From an uncultured Chloroflexota bacterium (GTDB lineage: Bacteria > Chloroflexota > Anaerolineae > Anaerolineales > Villigracilaceae): 33,269 nt of DNA. The stretch is taken from positions 1 to 33,269 of the forward strand of contig CAIWRB010000273.1 of assembly GCA_903914955.1 (NCBI GenBank), in the 5' to 3' direction. The notes under the pieces are model-generated. The model saw nothing but the letters and a program-made list of their open reading frames with translations, ran no database searches and was not told the DNA's origin. Positions 18,527 through 29,009 of this stretch are shown here, piece by piece (positions within the stretch are counted from its first letter, which is position 1; each line of letters opens with the position of its first letter). The translations under genes were made by a program, and so were the position numbers.

Positions 18527-19837
18527 ATGGCAAAAATCAAAAATACAACAGTACAAGTGCGTAAAGATGATGTCAACACGCTGCACTCGGCCAACGAGAT
18601 ATTAAAGGGCACAAGTAAAAAGGGTTTTTTTGCCCGCCTACTCCCCTTTATGGGACCAGCCTTCGTAGCCTCAGTGGCGTATGTTGACCCTGGTAATTTT
18701 GCAACAAATATTCAAGGCGGCGCCCAATTCGGTTACATGCTCTTATGGGTAATCACAGCTAGTAACTTGATGGCAATGCTCATTCAAACACTATCCGCTA
18801 AATTGGGAATTGCAACGGGCAAAAATCTGGCAGAACTTTGCCGTGAACATTTTCCGAAATGGGTTTCTGTCAGTATGTGGGTACTAATGGAACTGGTGGC
18901 AATGGCAACCGATCTGGCTGAATTTCTTGGAGCCGCACTTGGATTTAACCTGCTTTTCCATATTCCCTTGTTTGCGGCAGCCTTGCTGACAGCCTTTACA
19001 ACTTTCATCATCCTCGGTCTGGAGCGAAGAGGGTTTCGCCCCCTCGAAGCAGTCATCACGGCCTTGGTCGGAGTGATCGCGTTTTGTTACATCATCGAAA
19101 CGTTCCTGGATCGTCCGGATATTTCACAAGTTTTTTTTCATGCCTTTGTGCCACAATTTTCAGGCGTGGAGAGCGTACTTCTTGCAACCGGGATCCTGGG
19201 TGCAACTGTGATGCCGCATGTTATCTTCCTGCATTCATCGCTCACCCAAAATCGAATCCCTACAAAAAACGACGGCGAACTCAAGAAGTTATTTCGCTTC
19301 CAATTGTTTGACGTGACGATAGCCATGGGACTGGCGGGTCTGGTAAATGGCGCAATGCTAATCATGGCATCATCTACATTTCACGCTCAAGGACTGCAGA
19401 ATGTCGGCTCGATCGAGGAGGCGTATCGAACTCTAACGCCTTTGCTGGGTTCGGCGGCAAGCACCGTGTTCGCCATCTCCCTGCTCGCGTCCGGCTTGTC
19501 ATCTTCTACAGTCGGCACAATGGCAGGACAGGTCATAATGCAGGGTTTTATTCATCGCAGTATTCCAGTTTGGGTAAGGCGCGCCTTTACCATGGGTCCA
19601 CCACTTATTGTCATTGCGCTCGGACTCAACCCAACGCGCACTCTCGTGCTCAGCCAGGTTGTACTAAGTTTTGGCCTGCCGTTTGCAATCATTCCACTCG
19701 TCATGTTTACAAGACGCAAAGATGTAATGGGAATATTAGTTAACCATAAAATAACCACTATAATAGCCAGCATGGTAACAGCCTTGATCGTATCCCTAAA
19801 TCTATTCCTGCTTTATCAACTCACATTCGGTGGATAA
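18527..19837 (+). CDS. mntH: Nramp-family divalent metal transporter (MntH-like)
   Basis: This 436-residue integral membrane protein imports Mn2+ or Fe2+ with protons. The two metal-binding signatures are present: DPGN in helix 1 (54-57) and MPH in helix 6 (229-231). About 11 helices are expected (first near 40-60, last near 408-432), and the family's conserved AGLVNGAMLIMAS and SGLSSSTVGTMAGQV segments are visible. An N-terminal extension of about 35 polar residues precedes helix 1. It is downstream of the metal-responsive repressor with its own operator, so repression by metal is likely. The stop overlaps an upstream alternative start of the next gene. Confidence 0.92.
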   Translation: MAKIKNTTVQVRKDDVNTLHSANEILKGTSKKGFFARLLPFMGPAFVASVAYVDPGNFATNIQGGAQFGYMLLWVITASNLMAMLIQTLSAKLGIATGKNLAELCREHFPKWVSVSMWVLMELVAMATDLAEFLGAALGFNLLFHIPLFAAALLTAFTTFIILGLERRGFRPLEAVITALVGVIAFCYIIETFLDRPDISQVFFHAFVPQFSGVESVLLATGILGATVMPHVIFLHSSLTQNRIPTKNDGELKKLFRFQLFDVTIAMGLAGLVNGAMLIMASSTFHAQGLQNVGSIEEAYRTLTPLLGSAASTVFAISLLASGLSSSTVGTMAGQVIMQGFIHRSIPVWVRRAFTMGPPLIVIALGLNPTRTLVLSQVVLSFGLPFAIIPLVMFTRRKDVMGILVNHKITTIIASMVTALIVSLNLFLLYQLTFGG

Positions 19838-19841
19838 ACCC

Positions 19842-20750
19842 ATGTTTAAACGTATTCTCGTTCCCCTCGATGGTTCGAATTTGGCAGAAGCAAGCCTGCC
19901 CGCCGCCGCATCACTTGCCGAAAAAATGAGTGCACCCGTTACCCTGCTACATGTCATTGAACAGAACGCACCGGAAACTGTCCATCACGAGCGGCATCTC
20001 ACACATCCGCAAGAAGCAGAAAGCTATCTTCAAGATTTGGCTGGGCAAACTTTTTCAGCAGTGGTCAAAGCCAATTGGCACGTCCACAGTTCACAGGTTA
20101 AGGATGTGACTGCCAGTATCGTCGAACACGCCGCCGAATTTGATCCAGGTCTGATCATCATGTGCGCGCATGGGCGCAGCGGTATCCGCAGTTTGATATT
20201 TGGCAGGATCGCAGAACAAGTTGTCGCAAAAGTGTCAACTCCATTACTTCTGCTTCAGCCTATGACTTCACAGCGAAATCCATTCCAACTACGCCGAATC
20301 CTGCTTCCACTAGACAGCGAATCAGTTCACGATGACAGTTTTTCGCTTGCGAAGATTCTGGCAAAAGCCTATGATGCAGAGCTATCCTTGTTATGCGTTA
20401 TTCCAACATTCAGCACCTTGCGTGGCGATGAAGCGGCGACTAGTACGATTTTGCCCGCTACAACCAACGCGCTTTTGGATATTAAAGAAGAACATGCCAA
20501 CGAGCATCTCCAGGAGCATCTGAGTGAATTAGCCGGCGAGGGGTTTCGCGCTTCAGCAGAGATAGCACGCGGTGACCCTACTCAAACCATCGTCAATGTT
20601 GCTGAACATAGCGGAGTGGACCTGATCGTGATGAGCACTCATCGCAGAGCAGGCATGGACGCATTCTGGGCGCGTAGTGTTACCCCCAACGTAGCGCGGC
20701 GAACGCGTATTCCCCTGTTAATTATTCCGTTACCGCCACGATCACAATAA
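19842..20750 (+). CDS. Universal stress protein with two UspA domains
   Basis: This 302-residue soluble protein has two UspA domains (about 1-143 and 148-300), each starting with the RILVPLDGS-like strand (RILVPLDGSNLAEAS; RILLPLDSESVHDDS). The nucleotide-binding motif is only partly kept. Domain 1 has AHGRSGIRSLIFGR, where the final Ser/Thr is Arg. Domain 2 has STHRRAGMDAFWARS, where the first Gly is Arg and the second is Ala. ATP binding in domain 2 is therefore doubtful. I prefer ATG 19842, with GGTGGA seven bases upstream; a GTG at 19830 overlapping the mntH end is possible. Tandem USPs next to Nramp transporters occur in other bacteria; here it is probably co-transcribed with mntH. Confidence 0.88.
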   Translation: MFKRILVPLDGSNLAEASLPAAASLAEKMSAPVTLLHVIEQNAPETVHHERHLTHPQEAESYLQDLAGQTFSAVVKANWHVHSSQVKDVTASIVEHAAEFDPGLIIMCAHGRSGIRSLIFGRIAEQVVAKVSTPLLLLQPMTSQRNPFQLRRILLPLDSESVHDDSFSLAKILAKAYDAELSLLCVIPTFSTLRGDEAATSTILPATTNALLDIKEEHANEHLQEHLSELAGEGFRASAEIARGDPTQTIVNVAEHSGVDLIVMSTHRRAGMDAFWARSVTPNVARRTRIPLLIIPLPPRSQ

Positions 20751-20791
20751 ACTTTATGCCAAGGTTATTAGGTTGGGTTTACAATTAGCAA

Positions 20792-21736
20792 ATGTCTGAT
20801 AATCATACCCACTTGCATTTGGATAATATAACTTCTCAAACCACAAAAAGACTCGCGCTATCACTCGGATTAACAGCTGCGTTTGTGATCGTCGAGATTG
20901 TCGCGGGGATTTTTGGAAACAGCTTGGCGCTCCTCACCGACGCTGCGCACAACTTTACAGATGTGATCGCTCTCGGTTTAAGTTGGTATGCGATAAAACT
21001 TGCCACACAACCTGCTCATGCAGGTAAGACTTTCGGCTATCATCGCGCGGGAATTTTAGTAGCGTTGATAAATTCCACAACTTTGATTTTGATTGCAATG
21101 GGGATTTTCTATGAAGCATATCATCGCTTCCTCTCTCCGCCCGAGGTTAATTCAGCGATTCTGATAATCGTAGGCACTTTGGCATTTCTGATCAATGCGG
21201 GCACTGCATGGCTGGTCAAAAGCGGAAGCGAACATGATCTAAACCTGCGCAGCACATTCCTGCATTTGATGGGCGACGTACTATCCACGATCGGCGCGGT
21301 CATCGCCGGATTTATCATCGCGTTTACAAATTGGAACTGGCTTGATCCGCTGGTGAGTGTGATGATCGGAGCATTTATTTTATGGAACGCATGGGGAATC
21401 TTGCGGCAGGCAACCAATATCCTACTTGAAAATGCCCCCGAAAGTTTTGACATAAACTCGATGGTTAGTGACCTGCTCAAGGTGGAAGGTGTGCGGGATG
21501 TTCACGATCTACACGTCTGGAGCATCAATGAAAATCTGCGTGCGCTCTCCGCCCACATCATCACAGATGATGTACTGGTCAGCGCGGGGCTGCCAATTCA
21601 ACGTGACCTGAATGAAATTCTGGCACACAAGTACAACATCCGCCACGCGACGCTGCAACTGGAATGTGAATGTATCGGACAAAATATTCTATATTGCGAT
21701 ATTCATGAAGTAACTCATACTCACGGGATCGCATAA
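20792..21736 (+). CDS. Cation diffusion facilitator (CDF) metal exporter, CzcD/ZitB-like
   Basis: This 314-residue membrane protein has six helices and a C-terminal cytoplasmic domain (about 215-300), and exports divalent metal, most likely Zn2+, by proton antiport. The transport site shows the HxxxD pair in helix 2 (DAAHNFTD, H53 and D57) and in helix 5 (HLMGD). The HxxxD form is typical of the Zn-transporting group. A His-rich N-terminus (DNHTHLHLD) and a C-terminal Cys/His tail (ECECIG, HEVTHTHG) could help bind metal. No ribosome site is seen; TACAAT (20780-20785) lies six bases before ATG 20792, suggesting a leaderless transcript separate from the mntH operon. Confidence 0.9.
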   Translation: MSDNHTHLHLDNITSQTTKRLALSLGLTAAFVIVEIVAGIFGNSLALLTDAAHNFTDVIALGLSWYAIKLATQPAHAGKTFGYHRAGILVALINSTTLILIAMGIFYEAYHRFLSPPEVNSAILIIVGTLAFLINAGTAWLVKSGSEHDLNLRSTFLHLMGDVLSTIGAVIAGFIIAFTNWNWLDPLVSVMIGAFILWNAWGILRQATNILLENAPESFDINSMVSDLLKVEGVRDVHDLHVWSINENLRALSAHIITDDVLVSAGLPIQRDLNEILAHKYNIRHATLQLECECIGQNILYCDIHEVTHTHGIA

Positions 21737-21783
21737 GTACTTTTATAAAAAAACTTGTTTTTCTTCTTACTTTAGTAACAAAT

Positions 21784-22410
21784 TTACCGGCCGCGTAAAA
21801 ACGAAATCAGTGCACCTAAGGCTCCAATAAAACCGAAACCAAAGATCAATAATCCGACAGGCATACGGTCAATTGCCGAAGTATCCGCGTTAAATTTTGT
21901 TATGACCAGTGCTGCCGGCGGAGTGAAAGTTGGTAAACGGGTTGGAATGACAGGCGAGCTAAATGCCGCCAGCAAGGTTGGGTCTATATCGAAAATCAGC
22001 GTTGCCGCAGGGGTTGGCGTAGGCGGCGAAACCAACGCGGGTAATGACCCCGTCTTTACGATCTTCACAAAAGGTGCATAAACCCATGCAACAGAATTTG
22101 TTACTCCGGGATAATAGATCTGTATATAAGTTTTATCTTCTGAGTAGCCGTAAGCCGGCACCTCTTGTCCAGCCAGCAACACTCCGATCGCTGGGTATAA
22201 AAATTCGCTTGGACCTGAATACACATTGATCTGAAGCAGGTCAAGGAAAACACCAACAACCGGCCCGGAAGGTGTGCCTGTAACCGTTGGAATGGAACCT
22301 GTCGGCTGTTGAGCCAACGCAGAAGAATATGGGGAAAAGTCCGTAAGTATCAAGCCTATGAACAGAATTAAAAGAAAAGTGATCGACTGTATGATTCGAG
22401 TGGAATTCAT
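21784..22410 (-). CDS. Envelope protein with SH3-like domain and C-terminal membrane anchor (paralog 2)
   Basis: This 208-residue protein has a signal peptide (about 1-33), then an SH3b-like domain (about 48-123: GVFLDLLQINVYSGPSEFLYPAIG, GQEVPAYGYSEDKTYIQIYYPG, AWVYAPFVKI). A Pro/Thr-rich linker (SPPTPTPAAT, PTRLPTFTPP) and a C-terminal membrane helix (about 183-204) ending in RGR complete it. It shares this whole layout, including PGxTN/PGAPY-WVY and IDPTLLAxF segments, with the gene just upstream (22415-23026), so the two are tandem paralogs. SH3b domains often bind cell-wall peptides; a cell-surface sensing or anchoring role is plausible but unproven. The start follows the paralog's stop by four bases. 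Confidence 0.78.
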   Translation of the reverse strand: MNSTRIIQSITFLLILFIGLILTDFSPYSSALAQQPTGSIPTVTGTPSGPVVGVFLDLLQINVYSGPSEFLYPAIGVLLAGQEVPAYGYSEDKTYIQIYYPGVTNSVAWVYAPFVKIVKTGSLPALVSPPTPTPAATLIFDIDPTLLAAFSSPVIPTRLPTFTPPAALVITKFNADTSAIDRMPVGLLIFGFGFIGALGALISFLRGR

Positions 22411-22414
22411 TGGA

Positions 22415-23026
22415 TTATCGACGTAAAATAACTGAGAGCAAAAAGCCGATCAATCCCAGAGTCGCGAGAGCGAGAATAATAACTGCCTTTGAAACAGAGC
22501 CACTGGAATTCGCAACTTGTGTTTCCATGTAAGGTGGGGCAACTAATGATGGGGGCGGCGTGAAAGTCGGCGGACGCGTATTTGTAGGAACAACAACAAA
22601 TTGCGCGGCGAGCGTGGGATCTATGGTGGCAGTCGCGGGCGGGATGGGAGTCGGGGGCGGTCCAGCAATTTGCAAGGTACCCGGAGAAACCTGTACCAGC
22701 GGGGAATATACCCAGCCTTGATCATAAGGCGCTCCTGGATATTCGATCTTGATCCAATCTCCGCCTGCAGATCTTCCCAAGGCTGGGGCAGTGTCACCGG
22801 GATATAAAATTCCAACCTTGGGATATATTATCGAACTCGGCCCCATGCGAACATTCGCAAACGGCTCATCAGAAAGAACAGTGATATACATCCCATGAGA
22901 TTGAGGATCAGGGGTATCTGTGGATTGCTGAGCCTGCACAAGGGTCGAAGTGAATGCGATTAATATCCAAACATCAAGGATATTAATGATGGCAAAAGCT
23001 AAAGGGTAAAACCATTTTCGTTTCAT
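22415..23026 (-). CDS. Envelope protein with SH3-like domain and C-terminal membrane anchor (paralog 1)
   Basis: This 203-residue protein starts with a signal peptide (about 1-32, ending in VQAQ). An SH3b-like domain follows (about 45-118: MYITVLSDEPFANVRMGPSSIIYPKVG, LYPGDTAPALGRSAGGDWIKIEYPG, GWVYSPLVQV). Then come a Pro/Thr linker (GPPPTPIPPATATIDPTLAAQF, RPPTFTPPPS) and a C-terminal helix (about 178-200) ending in LRR. It is the first of two tandem paralogs on the minus strand. The bitopic layout places the SH3 domain outside the cell. Function is unknown. No strong ribosome site precedes ATG 23026. The gene is divergent from the zinc-ribbon gene, with 49 bases between the starts. Confidence 0.78.
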   Translation of the reverse strand: MKRKWFYPLAFAIINILDVWILIAFTSTLVQAQQSTDTPDPQSHGMYITVLSDEPFANVRMGPSSIIYPKVGILYPGDTAPALGRSAGGDWIKIEYPGAPYDQGWVYSPLVQVSPGTLQIAGPPPTPIPPATATIDPTLAAQFVVVPTNTRPPTFTPPPSLVAPPYMETQVANSSGSVSKAVIILALATLGLIGFLLSVILRR

Positions 23027-23062
23027 TTTATAGTTACTCTTAAGGAGAATCGCAAAGGCGAT

Positions 23063-23068
23063 TATAAT
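23063..23068 (+). promoter_or_regulatory. -10 box of the zinc-ribbon protein gene
   Basis: TATAAT lies seven bases before ATG 23076. A weak -35 (TTAAGG, 23040-23045) lies 17 bases upstream. No Shine-Dalgarno is present between the box and the ATG, so transcription would begin at or next to the start codon. Confidence 0.5.
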
Positions 23069-23075
23069 CTAATTC

Positions 23076-23666
23076 ATGGAACGAAAAATCTATCATGGAA
23101 CCATCAAACCCGTAGATATTACTCAGGCTTTACTTGGTGAATTTAACCAAGGAAATACCCGCGCCCAAACTATCGGTCAAAGCGATAAGATGATCCTGCA
23201 AATTGGAACGCGGCCTGGGGCCTCGTCAGGCGGACAGACTGCGATGACGGTGACCATCCAAAAATTGGAGGATGGCATCATGGTCGAGCTGGGACAGCAG
23301 GCATGGCTTGGCGTAGCCGCCAGCCTGGGAATGAGCGCAATTTCCGCCTTGCGAAATCCGTTTAGTTTGCTCGGACGGCTGGATGATATCGCGCAGGATA
23401 TTGAAAACCTGCAAATGAGCGAGCGTATCTGGCAGGTGATCTCGCAGGCGGTTCAGGCAAGCGGAGCTTCAACAGATCTTTCAGAAAAACTCAAGCGATT
23501 GACTTGCGAGTACTGTAACGCCGCAAACCCGGTTGGCGAGCCGTCTTGCGTAGCTTGCGGCGCACCTCTTGGGAATGCCCAGCCTGATACCTGTAAAAAA
23601 TGCGGGTACGTAGTCAAGACAAAAGATAAGATCTGCCCAAATTGCAAACAGGCACTGTTAAGATAA
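23076..23666 (+). CDS. Double zinc-ribbon protein of unknown function
   Basis: This 196-residue protein ends in two zinc ribbons: C144-x2-C147 with C158-x2-C161, and C173-x2-C176 with C187-x2-C190. The N-terminal 135 residues form an unassigned domain containing a beta-rich part (ILQIGTRPG, TAMTVTIQKLEDGIMVELG), then a small hydrophobic stretch (AWLGVAASLGMSAISAL, about 76-92) that may be a membrane-touching helix, and a helical part (about 98-130). It probably mediates protein or nucleic-acid contacts, but no function can be assigned. A terminator-like hairpin (23668-23693) follows. Confidence 0.75.
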   Translation: MERKIYHGTIKPVDITQALLGEFNQGNTRAQTIGQSDKMILQIGTRPGASSGGQTAMTVTIQKLEDGIMVELGQQAWLGVAASLGMSAISALRNPFSLLGRLDDIAQDIENLQMSERIWQVISQAVQASGASTDLSEKLKRLTCEYCNAANPVGEPSCVACGAPLGNAQPDTCKKCGYVVKTKDKICPNCKQALLR

Positions 23667-23667
23667 T

Positions 23668-23693
23668 AAACCGGCTGATAACTCAGTCGGTTT
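23668..23693 (+). terminator. Terminator-like hairpin after the zinc-ribbon gene
   Basis: AAACCGGCTGA (23668-23678) pairs with TCAGTCGGTTT (23683-23693), with one G-T wobble and loop TAAC, followed by a short T-run then CC. It directly follows the zinc-ribbon stop. Its right arm contains the left target duplication of the adjacent MITE-like element, so the T-tract was probably altered by the insertion. Confidence 0.65.
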
Positions 23694-23866
23694 TCCAGCA
23701 ATTCCAAATCTAAAACCGAACAGGCTCAAGATCAGGTAAACTCGGCTATCTTGCAGCAATAATGGTATTGCGCCAGCTGTAGATAAGTGTAAATGCCTCA
23801 TAATCTGGTCAAAAGCACCGTTATACCAAGAATTGAATTTCAGATTTGGAATTGCTGTCGGTTTTC
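23687..23866. mobile_element. MITE-like element with 16-bp TIRs and 9-bp target duplication
   Basis: The element spans 23696-23857 (162 bp). Its ends are perfect inverted repeats, CAGCAATTCCAAATCT (23696-23711) and AGATTTGGAATTGCTG (23842-23857). Directly outside both ends lies the same 9-base sequence TCGGTTTTC (23687-23695 and 23858-23866), as expected for a target duplication made on insertion. The 130-base interior has no credible gene. This is the structure of a miniature inverted-repeat transposable element moved by a transposase encoded elsewhere. A 9-bp duplication occurs with several transposase families, and none is assigned. It inserted between the zinc-ribbon terminator and the FHA gene promoter. 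Confidence 0.75.
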
Positions 23867-23874
23867 AGTTAGTC

Positions 23875-23903
23875 TTGCAGAAAAACCGACCACCTTCTAT
23901 AAT
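23875..23903 (+). promoter_or_regulatory. Sigma-70 promoter of the FHA/FtsW operon
   Basis: TTGCAG (23875-23880) and TATAAT (23898-23903) have a 17-base spacer. The predicted start is near 23910, giving a 15-base leader before ATG 23925. An inverted repeat GTCGGTTTT (23857-23865) / AAAACCGAC (23882-23890) brackets the -35. Its left arm is part of the target duplication of the MITE-like element. Confidence 0.8.
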
Positions 23904-23924
23904 GATTGGAGAAGGTCAAATAAA

Positions 23925-24752
23925 ATGAATTTAAAAGAATTAGAAGCTCGTCTCCAATCTCTGGTGGAAGTGGATCTGCTAAAAATACTTCCGAGTAGAA
24001 AAGTGGAGGATGTCATCATCCAAAAACTGGCGGCGGCAATCCAGCTCAACACAATTTTATTGGAGAATGGCTCGATCGTTGCTCCGGATGTTTATACCTT
24101 GATCATGCACCCAAGCACTTCTGCAAATTGGCAGGATCAGCAATTAATTTCAATTCTATTAAATTCAATTACTACAGTTGCGCAGGAAGCAGGTTTTCGG
24201 TTTACAATATCCCCTACAATCACCGTCTCAACGGACGAAAAAATATCTATATACGATGCCGTGATCGTGGCATCACATCGGATCGAATCTATGGCAGAAA
24301 CCAACGCATCGCCTCTGGATACCGGAAATCTTGAGTCCACCGGAAAATTACCCGAAAATGCCTTTTTGATCGTTGAAGGGGTTAAAATTTTCCCGTTGAC
24401 TTTAACTGTGGTAAATATCGGCCGCAGATTGGATAACCAATTAATTATCGATGACCCGCGTGTCTCTCGTAATCATGCACAGTTGCGGGCCATTAAAGGA
24501 CGGTATGTGGTCTTCGACTTAAATTCCACCGGGGGAATTTTTGTAAATGGACAACGCGCCAACCAAAGTGTGCTGTATCCGGGGGATGTTATCTCCCTGG
24601 CTGGCGTAGCTCTCATCTTCGGACAGGATAATCCACCCCCTCGCCCTGACTTAAAATCCACAGCGCCTTTGAAAAGCGGGGAAGAAAATTCCCCAAATCG
24701 TCCTACCGCGGCATTTAAAGATCGTTCCACAGCGAAAATTAAGAAAAAATGA
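23925..24752 (+). CDS. FHA-domain protein with DUF3662 N-terminus (FhaA-like)
   Basis: This 275-residue protein has an N-terminal DUF3662/FhaA_N domain (about 1-125: LEARLQSLVEVDLLKILPSRKVEDVIIQKLAAAI, APDVYTLIMHPS) and a C-terminal FHA domain (about 150-230). The FHA signature residues are visible: NIGRRLDNQLII, DPRVSRNHAQL and NSTGGIFVNGQ. FHA domains bind phosphothreonine peptides. In actinobacteria FhaA links Ser/Thr kinase signalling to cell-wall synthesis. The start is ATG 23925, with AGG nine bases upstream; an in-frame extension to 23793 would run through the MITE-like element and the promoter. Its end overlaps the next FHA gene by four bases. Confidence 0.9.
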   Translation: MNLKELEARLQSLVEVDLLKILPSRKVEDVIIQKLAAAIQLNTILLENGSIVAPDVYTLIMHPSTSANWQDQQLISILLNSITTVAQEAGFRFTISPTITVSTDEKISIYDAVIVASHRIESMAETNASPLDTGNLESTGKLPENAFLIVEGVKIFPLTLTVVNIGRRLDNQLIIDDPRVSRNHAQLRAIKGRYVVFDLNSTGGIFVNGQRANQSVLYPGDVISLAGVALIFGQDNPPPRPDLKSTAPLKSGEENSPNRPTAAFKDRSTAKIKKK

Positions 24753-25219
24753 GCGGTCCCATTGTTTTGGCCTTACGGCTAATTACTGCGGTCGCGCTAT
24801 ATAGCTTTCTGGGATGGGTTTTATTTTTTTTATGGCGTGAAGTTCAGCAGCAAAGCCAGTCACTGGCAAATCGGCGTGTTCCTGGGATCAGCATCACGGT
24901 CAAGCATGCAGACGACCCTTCCATCCTCAAGCATTTCGCACAAGCTGAAATCACATTGGGCCGTGACCCTGGCTGCGATATTCCATTAATGGACGACACG
25001 GTATCCACCCGCCATGCTCAATTGACCTATCATCACACACAATGGTGGCTGACGGATCTCTCATCCATGAACGGGACGATCCTAAATCAAGCGACCGTGA
25101 GCATGCCCACGGTGATCACGTCTGGTGATGAAATTATGTGTGGATCAACAAGTTTGACCATTGCTCTTTCACCCAACCTGGTAATTGAACCCACTCAAAG
25201 ATTGGAAAAACAAGAATGA
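24749..25219 (+). CDS. Membrane-anchored FHA-domain protein (FhaB-like)
   Basis: This 156-residue protein has one N-terminal membrane helix (about 8-29) followed by a cytoplasmic FHA domain (about 65-140). Key segments are ITLGRDPGCDIPLMDDTVSTRHAQL and LSSMNGTILNQ, which give the Arg, Ser and Asn residues that bind phosphothreonine. The helix-plus-FHA layout and position match actinobacterial FhaB (FipA), encoded next to fhaA and rodA. Start ATG overlaps the stop of the first FHA gene (ATGA, 24749-24752), and its own stop overlaps the next gene in the same way, so the three are translationally coupled. Confidence 0.9.
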   Translation: MSGPIVLALRLITAVALYSFLGWVLFFLWREVQQQSQSLANRRVPGISITVKHADDPSILKHFAQAEITLGRDPGCDIPLMDDTVSTRHAQLTYHHTQWWLTDLSSMNGTILNQATVSMPTVITSGDEIMCGSTSLTIALSPNLVIEPTQRLEKQE

Positions 25220-26082
25220 CAGAAAATATATCCATCGCCATCATCGGCGGCTCTGGTTTGTATCAAATGTCGGGGCTGATTGATGTAACAGAACACATTA
25301 TTGATACGCCCTTTGGTAAAACAAGCGCGCCGATTGTTGTTGGCACACTTGAAGGCATCCGGGTGGCATTCCTTGCGCGTCATGGTCTTGGTCATCATAT
25401 TACTCCGAGCGAAGTACCTTATCGCGCGAACATTTACGCACTGAAATCGCTTGGCGTGGAACGTGTAATCAGCATTAGCGCGTGCGGTTCATTGCGCGAG
25501 GATTACGCACCCGGCCACATAGTGATCCCTGATAACATTTTTGACAATACCAAAGATCGCGCCCGCACATTTTTTGGGGACGGTTTTGTTGGCCACGTCA
25601 GCGTGGCAGACCCATTCTGCGAAGACCTTTCGAATCAGGTCGAAGTTGCCGTGCGTTCCACAGGTGCAGTCACTCATCGCGGCGGTTCGTTTATTACGAT
25701 CGAAGGGCCGCGCTTTTCCACAAAAGCAGAATCAAATGCTTTTCGAAACTGGGGCATGTCCATAATCGGAATGACCGCAGCTCCGGAAGCATTCCTTGCA
25801 CGCGAAGCTGAACTCTGCTATTCAACGATGGCGCATGTCACTGATTATGACGTCTGGCATGAAAGCGAATCACCTGTGACCGTTGACATGGTGATCCAAA
25901 CACTTCATAAGAACACGCATCTTGCACAACAGGCGATCCGCAATTTGTTGCGGGAAATTAAACCCGAACGCTTATGTCAATGCGGCCAAGCGCTATCCAC
26001 CGCCTTAATTACAGACCCAAAATCAATCCCCGTTGAAACGCGCAAAAGGCTAGACTTAATTGTAGGCAAATACTTAAAATAA
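25216..26082 (+). CDS. mtnP: S-methyl-5'-thioadenosine phosphorylase
   Basis: This 288-residue enzyme cleaves 5'-methylthioadenosine with phosphate to adenine and methylthioribose-1-phosphate in the methionine salvage pathway. Family motifs are IIGGSGLY (9-16), RHGLGHHITPSEVPYRANIYALK (55-77), ISACGSLRED (87-96), IEGPRFSTKAE, the nucleoside-binding IIGMTAAPEAFLAREAELCYSTMAHVTDYD. The TDYD-W ending favours methylthioadenosine over inosine/guanosine, although close relatives with altered specificity exist. It starts inside the FHA gene stop (ATGA). Its place between FHA and FtsW genes is unrelated to cell-wall function as far as can be seen, and may only reflect shared expression. Confidence 0.92.
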   Translation: MTENISIAIIGGSGLYQMSGLIDVTEHIIDTPFGKTSAPIVVGTLEGIRVAFLARHGLGHHITPSEVPYRANIYALKSLGVERVISISACGSLREDYAPGHIVIPDNIFDNTKDRARTFFGDGFVGHVSVADPFCEDLSNQVEVAVRSTGAVTHRGGSFITIEGPRFSTKAESNAFRNWGMSIIGMTAAPEAFLAREAELCYSTMAHVTDYDVWHESESPVTVDMVIQTLHKNTHLAQQAIRNLLREIKPERLCQCGQALSTALITDPKSIPVETRKRLDLIVGKYLK

Positions 26083-26084
26083 AT

Positions 26085-28508
26085 ATGCCAGACGCGACGC
26101 AAAGCCGCCTCTTACGCTGGGCGACATTCATTCTCTTCGTCCAAGCGACGATCCTGACAATCTCTCCCGCAGTGCGCGAACATACCTGGAATGTAAATTT
26201 CAGGTTGTCACACTGGCTGGGATTTTTTATTTGGATCGTTCTCATGAATTTTGCGCATCGCGCAACCGCCAAACAATTACAAGAGCGCGACCCATATCTT
26301 CTTCCAGCAGCAGGCCTACTTAGCGGATGGGGACTCCTAACCATTTGGCGCCTGGATGAAACCTTTGGGCTACGTCAAACGATCTGGCTCGCTGTAAGTA
26401 TTATCGTTTTCATTTCGGCTCTGTATCTCCCCAAAAATCTCGCCTTCCTCAGGCGCTATAAATATGTGCTTCTGAGCGGCGGGCTGATCATCACAACACT
26501 GACTCTCTTCCTTGGCACAAACCCGCTTGGAGTAGGTCCTCACTTATGGCTGGGCTGTTGCGGTATCTATCTCCAACCATCCGAGCCGCTTAAATTATTA
26601 CTGGTGATTTATCTATCAGCATATCTCGCAGACCGCGCAAGTATTCGGCTGACATCATTACCATTACTCGTGCCAACGGTCGTCGTCACCGGACTTGCAC
26701 TTTTACTGCTGCTCGTTCAACGCGACCTTGGCACAGCCTCGATATTTGTATCAATATTCACCATTCTTATTTTTATCGCGACCGGCAAACGACGGGTGTT
26801 ATTAAGTGTAATTTTCTTTTTGATCATCGCTTTGGCTGTAGGTTATTTTTTCATTGATATTATTCAAATTCGCGTGGAAGCCTGGCTCGACCCGTGGGCT
26901 GACCCTTCCGGGCAATCCTATCAGATCGTGCAGTCAGTACTGGCAGTTGCAAACGGAGGCATCATTGGGCGCGGACTTGGGCTGGGAAGCCCGCTTCTGG
27001 TTCCTGTTGCTATATCAGATTTTATTTATGCGGCAATAGCAGAAGAAACGGGTTTGGCCGGGAGTATAGGATTGCTCGCCTTGATCTGGTTGATCCTGGC
27101 CCGAGGAATGATCATCGCCCTAAACTCTACCGATCGATTTCGCCGTTATCTCGCGGCTGGCATAGTGACATACTTCGGCATTCAGAGCCTGCTGATCATC
27201 GGCGGAAACCTGCGTATGCTTCCGCTGACAGGTGTGACATTACCCTTTGTTTCCTACGGCGGATCTTCGTTATTGACCTCTTTCATCGCCTTGGTCATTT
27301 TGCTCATCATCAGCAACGTGGAAGACAACGAACCCGCCCCACTGCCTGATCCAAGACCGTATACGCTGCTTACAGGCATGCTCGTTCTGGGATTTGCCAC
27401 ACTCGCATTTGCCAGCGCCTGGTGGGCGGTCTTCCGCGGACCAGACCTGCTCAACCGCACAGATAACGCACGCCGCTCTATCGCAGATCGATACATGGCA
27501 CGCGGCGAGTTATTAGATAGAAACAATCACCCCATCAATATTACCGAAGGCGAAAGCGGAACCTATAACCGTGTCTACGTTTATCCTGATCTCGCACCGA
27601 TTAGCGGCTATACAAATCCGATCTATGGACAGGCCGGCTTGGAAGCAACACTTGATGATTATTTACGAGGTTTGAAGGGAAACCCGGCCAGTCTCATTTG
27701 GTGGGATTATTTACTTTACGGCACTCCCCCGCCCGGTCTGAACGTTCGACTGAGCATTGACCTCTCCCTTCAAACCGAAGCGGATCGATTGCTCGGTGAA
27801 CACGCTGGCTCAGTTATCCTGATGAATGCGCAAACGGGCGAGATCCTTGTGATGGCATCGCACCCGACTTATGATCCAAACAAACTGGACACAGAAGGTG
27901 ACGCTCTTTCAGCAAATTCATCTGCGCCATTGGTTAACCGAGCAACCCAGGGGTTATATCAAATTGGCACAGCCATACTTCCGTTGCTGCACGCAGAATT
28001 TGGAGATACTCAGCCAATAGATTCCGCGCTGAAAAAGTACTATCAAAAACTTGGCTTGTATCAAGCGCCATCCATCAATATGCCTGTTGCATTTGATGCG
28101 GAAGAAAATTTAATAAAAGATCTCAAAGTAAGTCCATTGCAGATCAGTCTCGCGGCCGCGCTGCTAAGTAATCAAGGGATCAAACCTGTAGCGAGAATTG
28201 CAATGGCGGTGGAAACACCTGCGCAAGGATGGGTGGTGCTGTCAAACGAGAGTCAGCCTGTTGAGTTGATTCAACCCAAAGCGGCGAATGAAGCGGCTCT
28301 GTCTTTCGTCCTGGAAGGCAAACCTTACTGGAGTCATACCAGTCAGGTATTCGTAGATAAGAGTCCAATTACATGGTTATTATCCGGCACATTGCCGGAT
28401 TGGGGCGGTACACCGTTGGTGTTGGTGGTCGCGCTCGAGGAAAATAATATTTTCCTCGCCGATCGTATTGGGACAGAAATTCTTGACATGGCATTGAATC
28501 AAAAATGA
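26085..28508 (+). CDS. FtsW/RodA glycosyltransferase fused to a degenerate PBP transpeptidase domain
   Basis: This 807-residue protein joins a SEDS-family domain to a penicillin-binding-protein domain. Residues 1 to about 410 form a membrane SEDS domain with conserved segments PHLWLG-IYLQPSEPLKL, AIAEETGLAGS and LPFVSYGGSS, consistent with peptidoglycan glycan polymerisation. A single helix (about 425-450) links to a PBP-like part: GELLDRNNHPIN, the PIYGQAGLEATLDDYLRG region, SIDLSLQTEADRLL and SVILMNAQTGEILVMASHPTYDPN. The catalytic motifs are gone. Where SxxK is expected (NRATQGLYQIGTAI, near 618-631) there is no Ser-x-x-Lys, no SxN is found, and KTG is replaced by WSHTSQ (near 748-753). 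The VSPLQ-SLAAALLSNQG helix is kept. The PBP half probably activates or supports the SEDS half without transpeptidase chemistry. Confidence 0.88.
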   Translation: MPDATQSRLLRWATFILFVQATILTISPAVREHTWNVNFRLSHWLGFFIWIVLMNFAHRATAKQLQERDPYLLPAAGLLSGWGLLTIWRLDETFGLRQTIWLAVSIIVFISALYLPKNLAFLRRYKYVLLSGGLIITTLTLFLGTNPLGVGPHLWLGCCGIYLQPSEPLKLLLVIYLSAYLADRASIRLTSLPLLVPTVVVTGLALLLLLVQRDLGTASIFVSIFTILIFIATGKRRVLLSVIFFLIIALAVGYFFIDIIQIRVEAWLDPWADPSGQSYQIVQSVLAVANGGIIGRGLGLGSPLLVPVAISDFIYAAIAEETGLAGSIGLLALIWLILARGMIIALNSTDRFRRYLAAGIVTYFGIQSLLIIGGNLRMLPLTGVTLPFVSYGGSSLLTSFIALVILLIISNVEDNEPAPLPDPRPYTLLTGMLVLGFATLAFASAWWAVFRGPDLLNRTDNARRSIADRYMARGELLDRNNHPINITEGESGTYNRVYVYPDLAPISGYTNPIYGQAGLEATLDDYLRGLKGNPASLIWWDYLLYGTPPPGLNVRLSIDLSLQTEADRLLGEHAGSVILMNAQTGEILVMASHPTYDPNKLDTEGDALSANSSAPLVNRATQGLYQIGTAILPLLHAEFGDTQPIDSALKKYYQKLGLYQAPSINMPVAFDAEENLIKDLKVSPLQISLAAALLSNQGIKPVARIAMAVETPAQGWVVLSNESQPVELIQPKAANEAALSFVLEGKPYWSHTSQVFVDKSPITWLLSGTLPDWGGTPLVLVVALEENNIFLADRIGTEILDMALNQK

Positions 28509-28550
28509 AAGGATAAATTTTTTTCAATCCAGGGAGTATTTGATCGAATC

Positions 28551-28581
28551 AAAAAAGGCCAGGGATTGCCTGACCTTTTTT
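28551..28581. terminator. Bidirectional Rho-independent terminator
   Basis: AAAAAAGG (28551-28558) and CCTTTTTT (28574-28581) form the outer stem. CAGG (28560-28563) and CCTG (28569-28572) extend it past one mismatch, with a five-base loop. T-runs follow on both strands. It lies between the convergent FtsW/PBP gene and ferredoxin gene and should end both. Confidence 0.88.
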
Positions 28582-28595
28582 GCCTTGGAAATTAA

Positions 28596-29009
28596 TTATA
28601 TGCCTTTATCGTTATCTTTGGCCCCGTAGCCAGGACCGCTTTTGAAGAAAGTATAGTTTGGTTTAATGTCGGGGGTCAGGTCAACAACTTCACCCGCAGC
28701 GAGTTGTTTCGCGGTTTCAAGAACAACGGCTTTACCATGGTGATTTGTAGCTTCATAATGACCAGTGAGACCAACATTGCTGATATATTCGCCGCCCTTC
28801 GCGGTGTACGCAGCAGGAACTTCATCTTCAGGGAAGATGGCGGCAAATGGGCACTCGGGGACACAAGCACCACAATCGATGCAGGTGTCAGGATCAATAT
28901 AGATCCACGGCCATTCTGCAAGAGGCTGGCCAGGGATCATACACTCGACGGGGCATACATCGATGCAACCGCGGTCACGAACGCATAAACTGGTAATAAT
29001 GTGAGTCAT
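28596..29009 (-). CDS. Ferredoxin with two Fe-S cluster motifs
   Basis: This 137-residue electron-transfer protein has two cysteine motifs: C9-x5-C15-x3-C19P-x2-C23 and C43-x2-C46-x2-C49-x3-C53P. The second is a standard [4Fe-4S] motif. The first has wider spacing and may hold a [3Fe-4S] or [4Fe-4S] cluster, as in seven-iron or eight-iron ferredoxins. A C-terminal extension of about 80 residues (after 60) contains a conserved-looking YISNVGLTGHYEATNHHG segment and no further cysteines. AGGAG precedes ATG 29009. It has its own promoter (29054-29081) and terminator, so it is probably a single-gene unit. Redox partners cannot be read. Confidence 0.9.
   Translation of the reverse strand: MTHIITSLCVRDRGCIDVCPVECMIPGQPLAEWPWIYIDPDTCIDCGACVPECPFAAIFPEDEVPAAYTAKGGEYISNVGLTGHYEATNHHGKAVVLETAKQLAAGEVVDLTPDIKPNYTFFKSGPGYGAKDNDKGI

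Follow-up and report, generated by a model that had tools for sequence, protein, structure and literature searches.

A SEDS glycosyltransferase fused to a class B PBP without transpeptidase motifs in Anaerolineae

An uncultured Chloroflexota bacterium of the class Anaerolineae encodes, in one polypeptide, a SEDS glycosyltransferase with its active-site aspartate and a class B penicillin-binding protein (PBP) without the SxxK, SxN and KTG motifs of transpeptidases. The gene lies in a contig of 33,269 nucleotides, analysed whole and called the window hereafter. Motif loss of this kind recurs in dozens of genomes, and is thus neither chance nor sequencing error. We consider it likely that the gene encodes a third SEDS protein, dedicated to peptidoglycan polymerization, and that its partner from class B would be a covalently attached pseudoenzyme that activates or regulates it, with crosslinking provided in trans.

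Results

The SEDS domain of the fusion is recognized by Pfam with 239.9 bits (PF01098, cut-off 26.4). Of the transpeptidase profile PF00905, only positions 1-43 of 299 are matched, at residues 575-628; PBP_dimer_2 scores 26.2 bits at residues 473-554, against a cut-off of 27. An AlphaFold2 model of the whole fusion, calculated from an alignment of 27 rows, reached a pLDDT of 87.3 and a pTM of 0.79. Its SEDS half superposes on FtsW (8bh1) with Z 36.0 and rmsd 2.3 over 327 residues, and its PBP half on PbpA (3un7), among the closest solved folds for this half, with Z 35.9 and rmsd 2.8 over 331 residues. By the latter match the fusion has both the pedestal and the transpeptidase fold of a class B PBP; the claim of an earlier, sequence-only reading that the fold is kept is thereby borne out. 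In a search of plasmid records, none covered 80% of the query.

Table 1. Features of the fusion gene and of the genes preceding it (positions in the window).
Feature	Position	Strand	Basis
FhaA-like gene (FhaA_N + FHA)	23793..24752	+	PF12401 26.0 bits (cut-off 25); PF00498 E 3e-17
FhaB-like gene (FHA), named by gene order	24749..25219	+	PF00498 E 2.5e-17
Phosphorylase-superfamily gene between FHA genes and fusion	25216..26082	+	PF01048 E 7.4e-45
SEDS–pseudo class B PBP fusion, 807 aa	26085..28508	+	ORF, Pfam, AF2 model
SEDS glycosyltransferase domain, residues 93-411	26361..27317	+	PF01098 E 5.4e-71; fold match FtsW 8bh1
D312 in ISDF, equivalent of catalytic Asp (E. coli RodA Asp262)	27018..27020	+	SEDS alignment; role from a passage of PMC10449877
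PBP transmembrane helix, residues 424-450	27354..27434	+	Helix in AF2 model
Pedestal region, about residues 466-560	27480..27764	+	PBP_dimer_2 473-554 just under cut-off; dN/dS 0.045
Transpeptidase-fold part without catalytic motifs, residues 561-807	27765..28505	+	Pfam, alignment, profile, structure match
SxxK site, TAIL (629-632)	27969..27980	+	Alignment columns
Shortened helical lobe at expected SxN place, residues 633-681	27981..28127	+	Lobe-length comparison
KTG site, HTS (751-753, within WSHTSQ)	28335..28343	+	Alignment columns

We aligned 139 PBP halves (the fusion and 138 others) together with three intact PBPs from the same genome. At the SxxK column the fusion reads T629-A-I-L632, at the KTG column H751-T-S753, and the SxN region falls in a gap where the lobe is shortened; this structure-informed alignment confirms the absence of the three motifs first noticed from the letters. 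The Ser and Lys of SxxK occur together in none of the 85 distinct degenerate rows and in all 45 intact ones. Ser alone persists at the first motif in 12 of the 85, Lys in none, and the third motif is HTG or HSG in nine; even if HTG is counted as a kept third motif, all three are absent in 80 of the 85. In a separate comparison, a profile of 19 related halves matched the part of M. tuberculosis PbpA that begins with the pedestal and extends to the C-terminus, and placed degenerate segments opposite SxxK, SxN and KTG of that protein and of an Eggerthella PBP.

The motifs have not moved elsewhere in the domain. Within residues 456-807 the single S-x-x-K is SALK, at 647, which is not conserved, and no alignment column carries the motif in more than nine of the 85 distinct degenerate rows. 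The sequence-only reading had proposed aligning homologs at the three positions, and had named an intact SxxK and KTG elsewhere as the finding that would tell against it: loss of the Ser/Lys pair proves common to all 84 fused rows, with no conserved alternative S-x-x-K column.

The helical lobe differs in length between families. The segment between the SxxK site and SPLQ counts 47 residues in the row that stands for f1, whereas the 31 intact rows have 114-147. The same segment measures 25-80 residues in families f1, f2, f4, f8, f10 and f16, and 105-125 in f5, f6, f7, f9, f11, f13, f14, f20, f22, f24 and f34.

The SEDS half keeps its hallmarks, as had been claimed. P307 and D312, in periplasmic loop 4, are invariant across 27 rows. 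The catalytic Asp is present in 51/51 SEDS rows of the degenerate group and in 32/32 of the intact group (30/30 in a repeat); in that repeat, which included the genome's own FtsW and RodA, the neighbouring Pro and the Asp occur together in 51/51 and 30/30 rows. The catalytic role of this residue is described for E. coli RodA (Asp262) in a passage of PMC10449877. The genome's own RodA-type SEDS (L007, contig C242) has a Lys at the conserved Pro column (QLKVRHTDF), which an alignment shift may explain.

Fifty-eight of 61 genomes (that of the window and 60 relatives) contain a match to the fusion protein at E 1e-30; at this threshold none was found in G003 (77% complete), G013 (71%) and G050 (95%). 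One further genome, G232, gave weak PBP matches only, and judging from G050 and G232 the fusion gene seems not to be universal in the order. When 251 genomes from across the phylum were searched with the profile of the PBP half, 177 had matches, ordinary PBPs included. For 59 of those genomes one stretch each was fetched, picked by eye to span families and hence non-random; same-class genomes with weak or no matches (for example G095, G192, G264 and G240) lie outside the fetched set.

The 84 fused rows among the 139, all degenerate at the Ser/Lys pair, comprise 77 distinct sequences and come from 61 genomes in 14 family codes and from 23 named loci, some of them from the same genomes. All 45 intact rows are separate genes, from 44 genomes in 31 family codes and one Clostridiales MAG locus. 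This coincidence of fusion with loss of the pair counts for a pseudoenzyme partner. Nine rows, from eight genomes and one named locus, are degenerate yet separate, so motif loss is not strictly tied to fusion; the remaining row is cut by a contig end. Since no SEDS gene occurs in the stretch examined for 13 of the 45 intact rows, these possibly do not pair with SEDS proteins of this type.

Named carriers of the fusion include Levilinea saccharolytica KIBI-1 and Candidatus Mesolinea. On the Levilinea contig NZ_LGCM01000042.1 the fusion stands twice, as mirror images (L180 and L181), which gives the contig a palindromic appearance that probably stems from its assembly. Among the nine degenerate rows counted as separate, G016 (L053) and L170 have a broken frame, perhaps through sequencing error, in what is apparently one gene.

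Three of the 58 genomes with a match, all 93-97% complete, have the SEDS part only: G038 (L067), G047 (L066) and G060 (L068). No match to the PBP profile lies within about 4 kb downstream of their related SEDS gene, and genome-wide their only PBP matches resemble ordinary PBPs. In these genomes the pseudo-PBP may be dispensable, or may have diverged beyond recognition.

We built a first SEDS tree of 86 rows and a second of 81, from which the contig-cut L120, L187, L115 and the rows labelled ownRodA and ownFtsW were removed; both omit most f1 rows and twelve named near-duplicates. In the quick tree the degenerate rows group together except L112. Two changes of state are needed on 81 rows and one when a single row is left out; a tree holding all 51 degenerate rows as one clade fits better by 9.58 lnL (p-AU 0.738). 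With the own FtsW and RodA as outgroup (83 rows), two changes are counted, one of them forced by starred branches. The fusion state needs four changes on the SEDS trees. Taken together, the trees allow one ancient loss of the transpeptidase motifs without proving it, and motif loss appears to be an old trait of a lineage, not peculiar to this gene.

The exception, L112, is both fused and degenerate; it belongs to G070 (family f34), which lies outside the class of the window's bacterium, and the quick tree places it among intact rows. An independent loss in G070 was considered and not upheld, as the tree that holds all degenerate rows together fits better.

Against the closest relative, L173, dN/dS is 0.076 for the SEDS half, 0.148 for the transmembrane helix and linker, 0.045 for the pedestal, 0.140 for the N-lobe of the transpeptidase part and 0.143 for its rest, at dS 0.21-0.35. 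This is the only one of eight comparisons that is unsaturated throughout, most having dS above 1 or not being computable; wherever a value was obtained for a PBP region, dN/dS is low. By these ratios the PBP half is under purifying selection, and the earlier claim that it does not simply decay holds; constraint on the pedestal is no weaker than on the SEDS half.

Identity ratios, taken with one row per family code and the named loci left out, indicate where constraint lies. The ratio of the C-terminal transpeptidase part to the pedestal has a median of 0.70 in degenerate rows (17 rows; leave-one-out means 0.69-0.71) against 1.14 in intact ones (31 rows; 1.11-1.14). Relative constraint is, on this measure, shifted from the transpeptidase core towards the pedestal in the degenerate group, which is the expectation if catalysis is unselected but contact with the SEDS half is selected. 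The N-lobe to pedestal ratio falls from 1.32 in intact to 1.14 in degenerate rows and still exceeds 1; mean identity in the latter is 0.437 for the N-lobe (561-640) and 0.396 for the pedestal. Such conservation of the N-lobe is not accounted for by SEDS contact alone, and this lobe may have a role of its own.

Upstream of the fusion stand two FHA-domain genes and a gene of the phosphorylase superfamily, the latter presumably of the MTAP-like kind. In many related stretches a homolog of this gene is present on the same strand. Where at least 2.5 kb upstream is covered, FHA genes precede 31 of 43 degenerate rows (the 43 include the contig-cut L120) and 20 of 34 intact ones. Ten neighbours scanned between 18527 and 29009 contain no kinase or phosphatase domain; kinase-domain matches of this genome lie on other contigs.

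Besides the fusion, the genome (98.68% complete) encodes two SEDS proteins and four PBPs whose motifs are intact; the separate active-type PBPs that the sequence-only reading had suggested looking for are thus present. Contig C242 carries MreC, a PBP above the cut-off of NCBIfam pbp2_mrdA and a SEDS protein above that of a RodA subfamily. On C220 a SEDS protein scores best with ftsW and a PBP with spoVD_pbp, both under the cut-off; named by their neighbourhood, they would be FtsW and FtsI. A further class B PBP on C288 is nearest to pbp2_mrdA, under the cut-off, and we take it to be MecA-like. In each of 14 other fusion-bearing genomes tested, alignment identified two or more PBPs that have both SxxK and KTG; among these proteins, L206 and L219 read SCD at SxN.

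Discussion

In Anaerolineae the fused PBP domain probably serves only to switch on or regulate the chain builder, by analogy with known SEDS partnerships. As in RodA-PBP2 and FtsW-FtsI, the SEDS active site would be held, and activated or gated, by the transmembrane helix and pedestal of the PBP half. Glycan strands would then be polymerized without coupled crosslinking by the same complex and crosslinked in trans by other PBPs, and acylation of the PBP half by a beta-lactam could not stop polymerization by this complex. Only the regulatory half of the partnership between SEDS and class B PBP would be left in the fusion. The activating role of the pseudo-PBP is inferred from published work on pairs of SEDS and class B PBP. 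The FtsW- and RodA-type proteins and intact PBPs of the same genome count for a third synthase. Our confidence in an activator is lowered by the three genomes with SEDS only, and the presence of FHA genes before no more than 31 of 43 degenerate rows counts against the preferred reading; the idea that the FHA proteins encoded nearby control the fusion is guesswork based on gene order.

The conservation of the N-lobe in degenerate rows, the purifying selection on the transpeptidase parts (dN/dS about 0.14) and the three genomes in which the SEDS gene persists but no such PBP half turned up would also suit a pseudo-PBP acting mainly as a docking or sensing module, for stem peptides, another PBP or a regulator, and not as an activator of SEDS. 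We hold this to be unlikely: the helical lobe, with its 25-80 residues in f1, f2, f4, f8, f10 and f16 where intact rows have 114-147, argues against a kept substrate pocket. It is distinctly improbable, in our estimate, that the SEDS half changed its job, to another lipid-linked glycan or to no polymerization at all, and that the loss of crosslinking followed. An extra SEDS beside FtsW- and RodA-type proteins would agree with such a change, but the Pro and Asp are kept in 51/51 rows, as in intact pairs, and the PBPs of sister gene pairs in the phylum still have their motifs.

There is very little chance that the transpeptidase still works through other residues. Some rows do retain a Ser at the first motif (12/85) or HTG/HSG at the third (nine), but the Lys is found in no row, SxN is replaced by a gap or another residue, and no S-x-x-K column is conserved elsewhere. 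Motif loss, repeated shortening and a stop inside five match rows (G004, G014, G016, G039 and G058) could finally be signs of a decaying pseudogene, an idea that we find hardly credible: no stop is listed in the remaining match rows, the fold is predicted with confidence, and low dN/dS in every computable PBP region led us to reject it.

The proposed pseudoenzyme partner has precedents in the laboratory. Contact of the pedestal with loop ECL4 activates FtsW and RodA, and in B. subtilis and S. aureus division is at least partly sustained by inactive PBP2B and PBP1, respectively, another PBP doing the crosslinking (PMC8078798). Inactive C. difficile SpoVD (S311A) likewise supports division at least partly and needs SpoVE, with redundancy provided by PBP3 (PMC12713402). 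The transmembrane helix of PBP2 stimulates RodA (passage of PMC10449877), and PBP2 activates RodA through one interface and inhibits it through another (passage of PMC10257715). The engineered class B PBPs share the dead catalytic site; they are laboratory mutants, whereas here motif loss is natural and clade-wide.

In RodA-PBP2 and FtsW-FtsI one finds the same SEDS fold with its catalytic Asp and a class B PBP with transmembrane helix and pedestal, and our model matches both halves; here, in contrast, they form one polypeptide, without transpeptidase motifs and with a shortened helical lobe. Natural SEDS-PBP fusions, also single open reading frames, are mentioned in PMC10449877, whose reference 18 is the Rhodococcus RHA1 genome; the passage is silent on motifs. 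The sequence-only reading had not seen such a protein described: fusions as such were already in print, as that passage attests, and the version with a dead PBP seems to be new, since no natural SEDS fusion or pair with a dead PBP was found in the open-licence literature. The apparent novelty is a natural, clade-wide dead class B PBP with SEDS.

In Actinobacteria the cluster runs FhaA-FhaB-PstP-RodA-PbpA-PknA-PknB. An annotated fha-rodA-pbpA example lists no PstP. Both arrangements have genes with FhaA_N/FHA and FHA domains ahead of RodA and a PbpA-type protein; here, unlike there, the two genes are fused, the PBP motifs are lost, a phosphorylase-superfamily gene is inserted, and neither PstP nor PknA or PknB lies within 18527-29009.

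If true, the preferred reading would make this family a natural experiment that separates the two jobs of a class B PBP, crosslinking and SEDS activation. What was kept (transmembrane helix, pedestal, N-lobe) as against what was discarded (nucleophile, much of the helical lobe) would show which part activation requires. The reading further suggests a SEDS synthase with a partner through which beta-lactams could not stop its polymerization, and the fusion offers a single-chain construct for structural work. With somewhat less than an even chance, we would extend the reading: Anaerolineae and some relatives may have a natural polymerase-only SEDS synthase, with a class B PBP that has been purely allosteric for about the age of a bacterial order, delivering uncrosslinked, beta-lactam-blind strands to other PBPs, possibly together with a class A pseudo-PBP found in several of the same genomes.

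This class A PBP-like protein is encoded outside the window, on contig C357 of the same genome (L006:382-2889, + strand). Compared with the genome's own intact PBP of that class, it differs at the Glu positions of GT51, which have a catalytic role, and at all three transpeptidase motifs. Of 20 loci including this one, L241 alone retains the Lys of SxxK and SxN, both being lost in the other 19. Eighteen have an altered third motif, the exceptions being L240 with KSG and L241 with KTG. The first GT51 Glu is lost in 17 of 18 covered loci and the second in 19 of 19.
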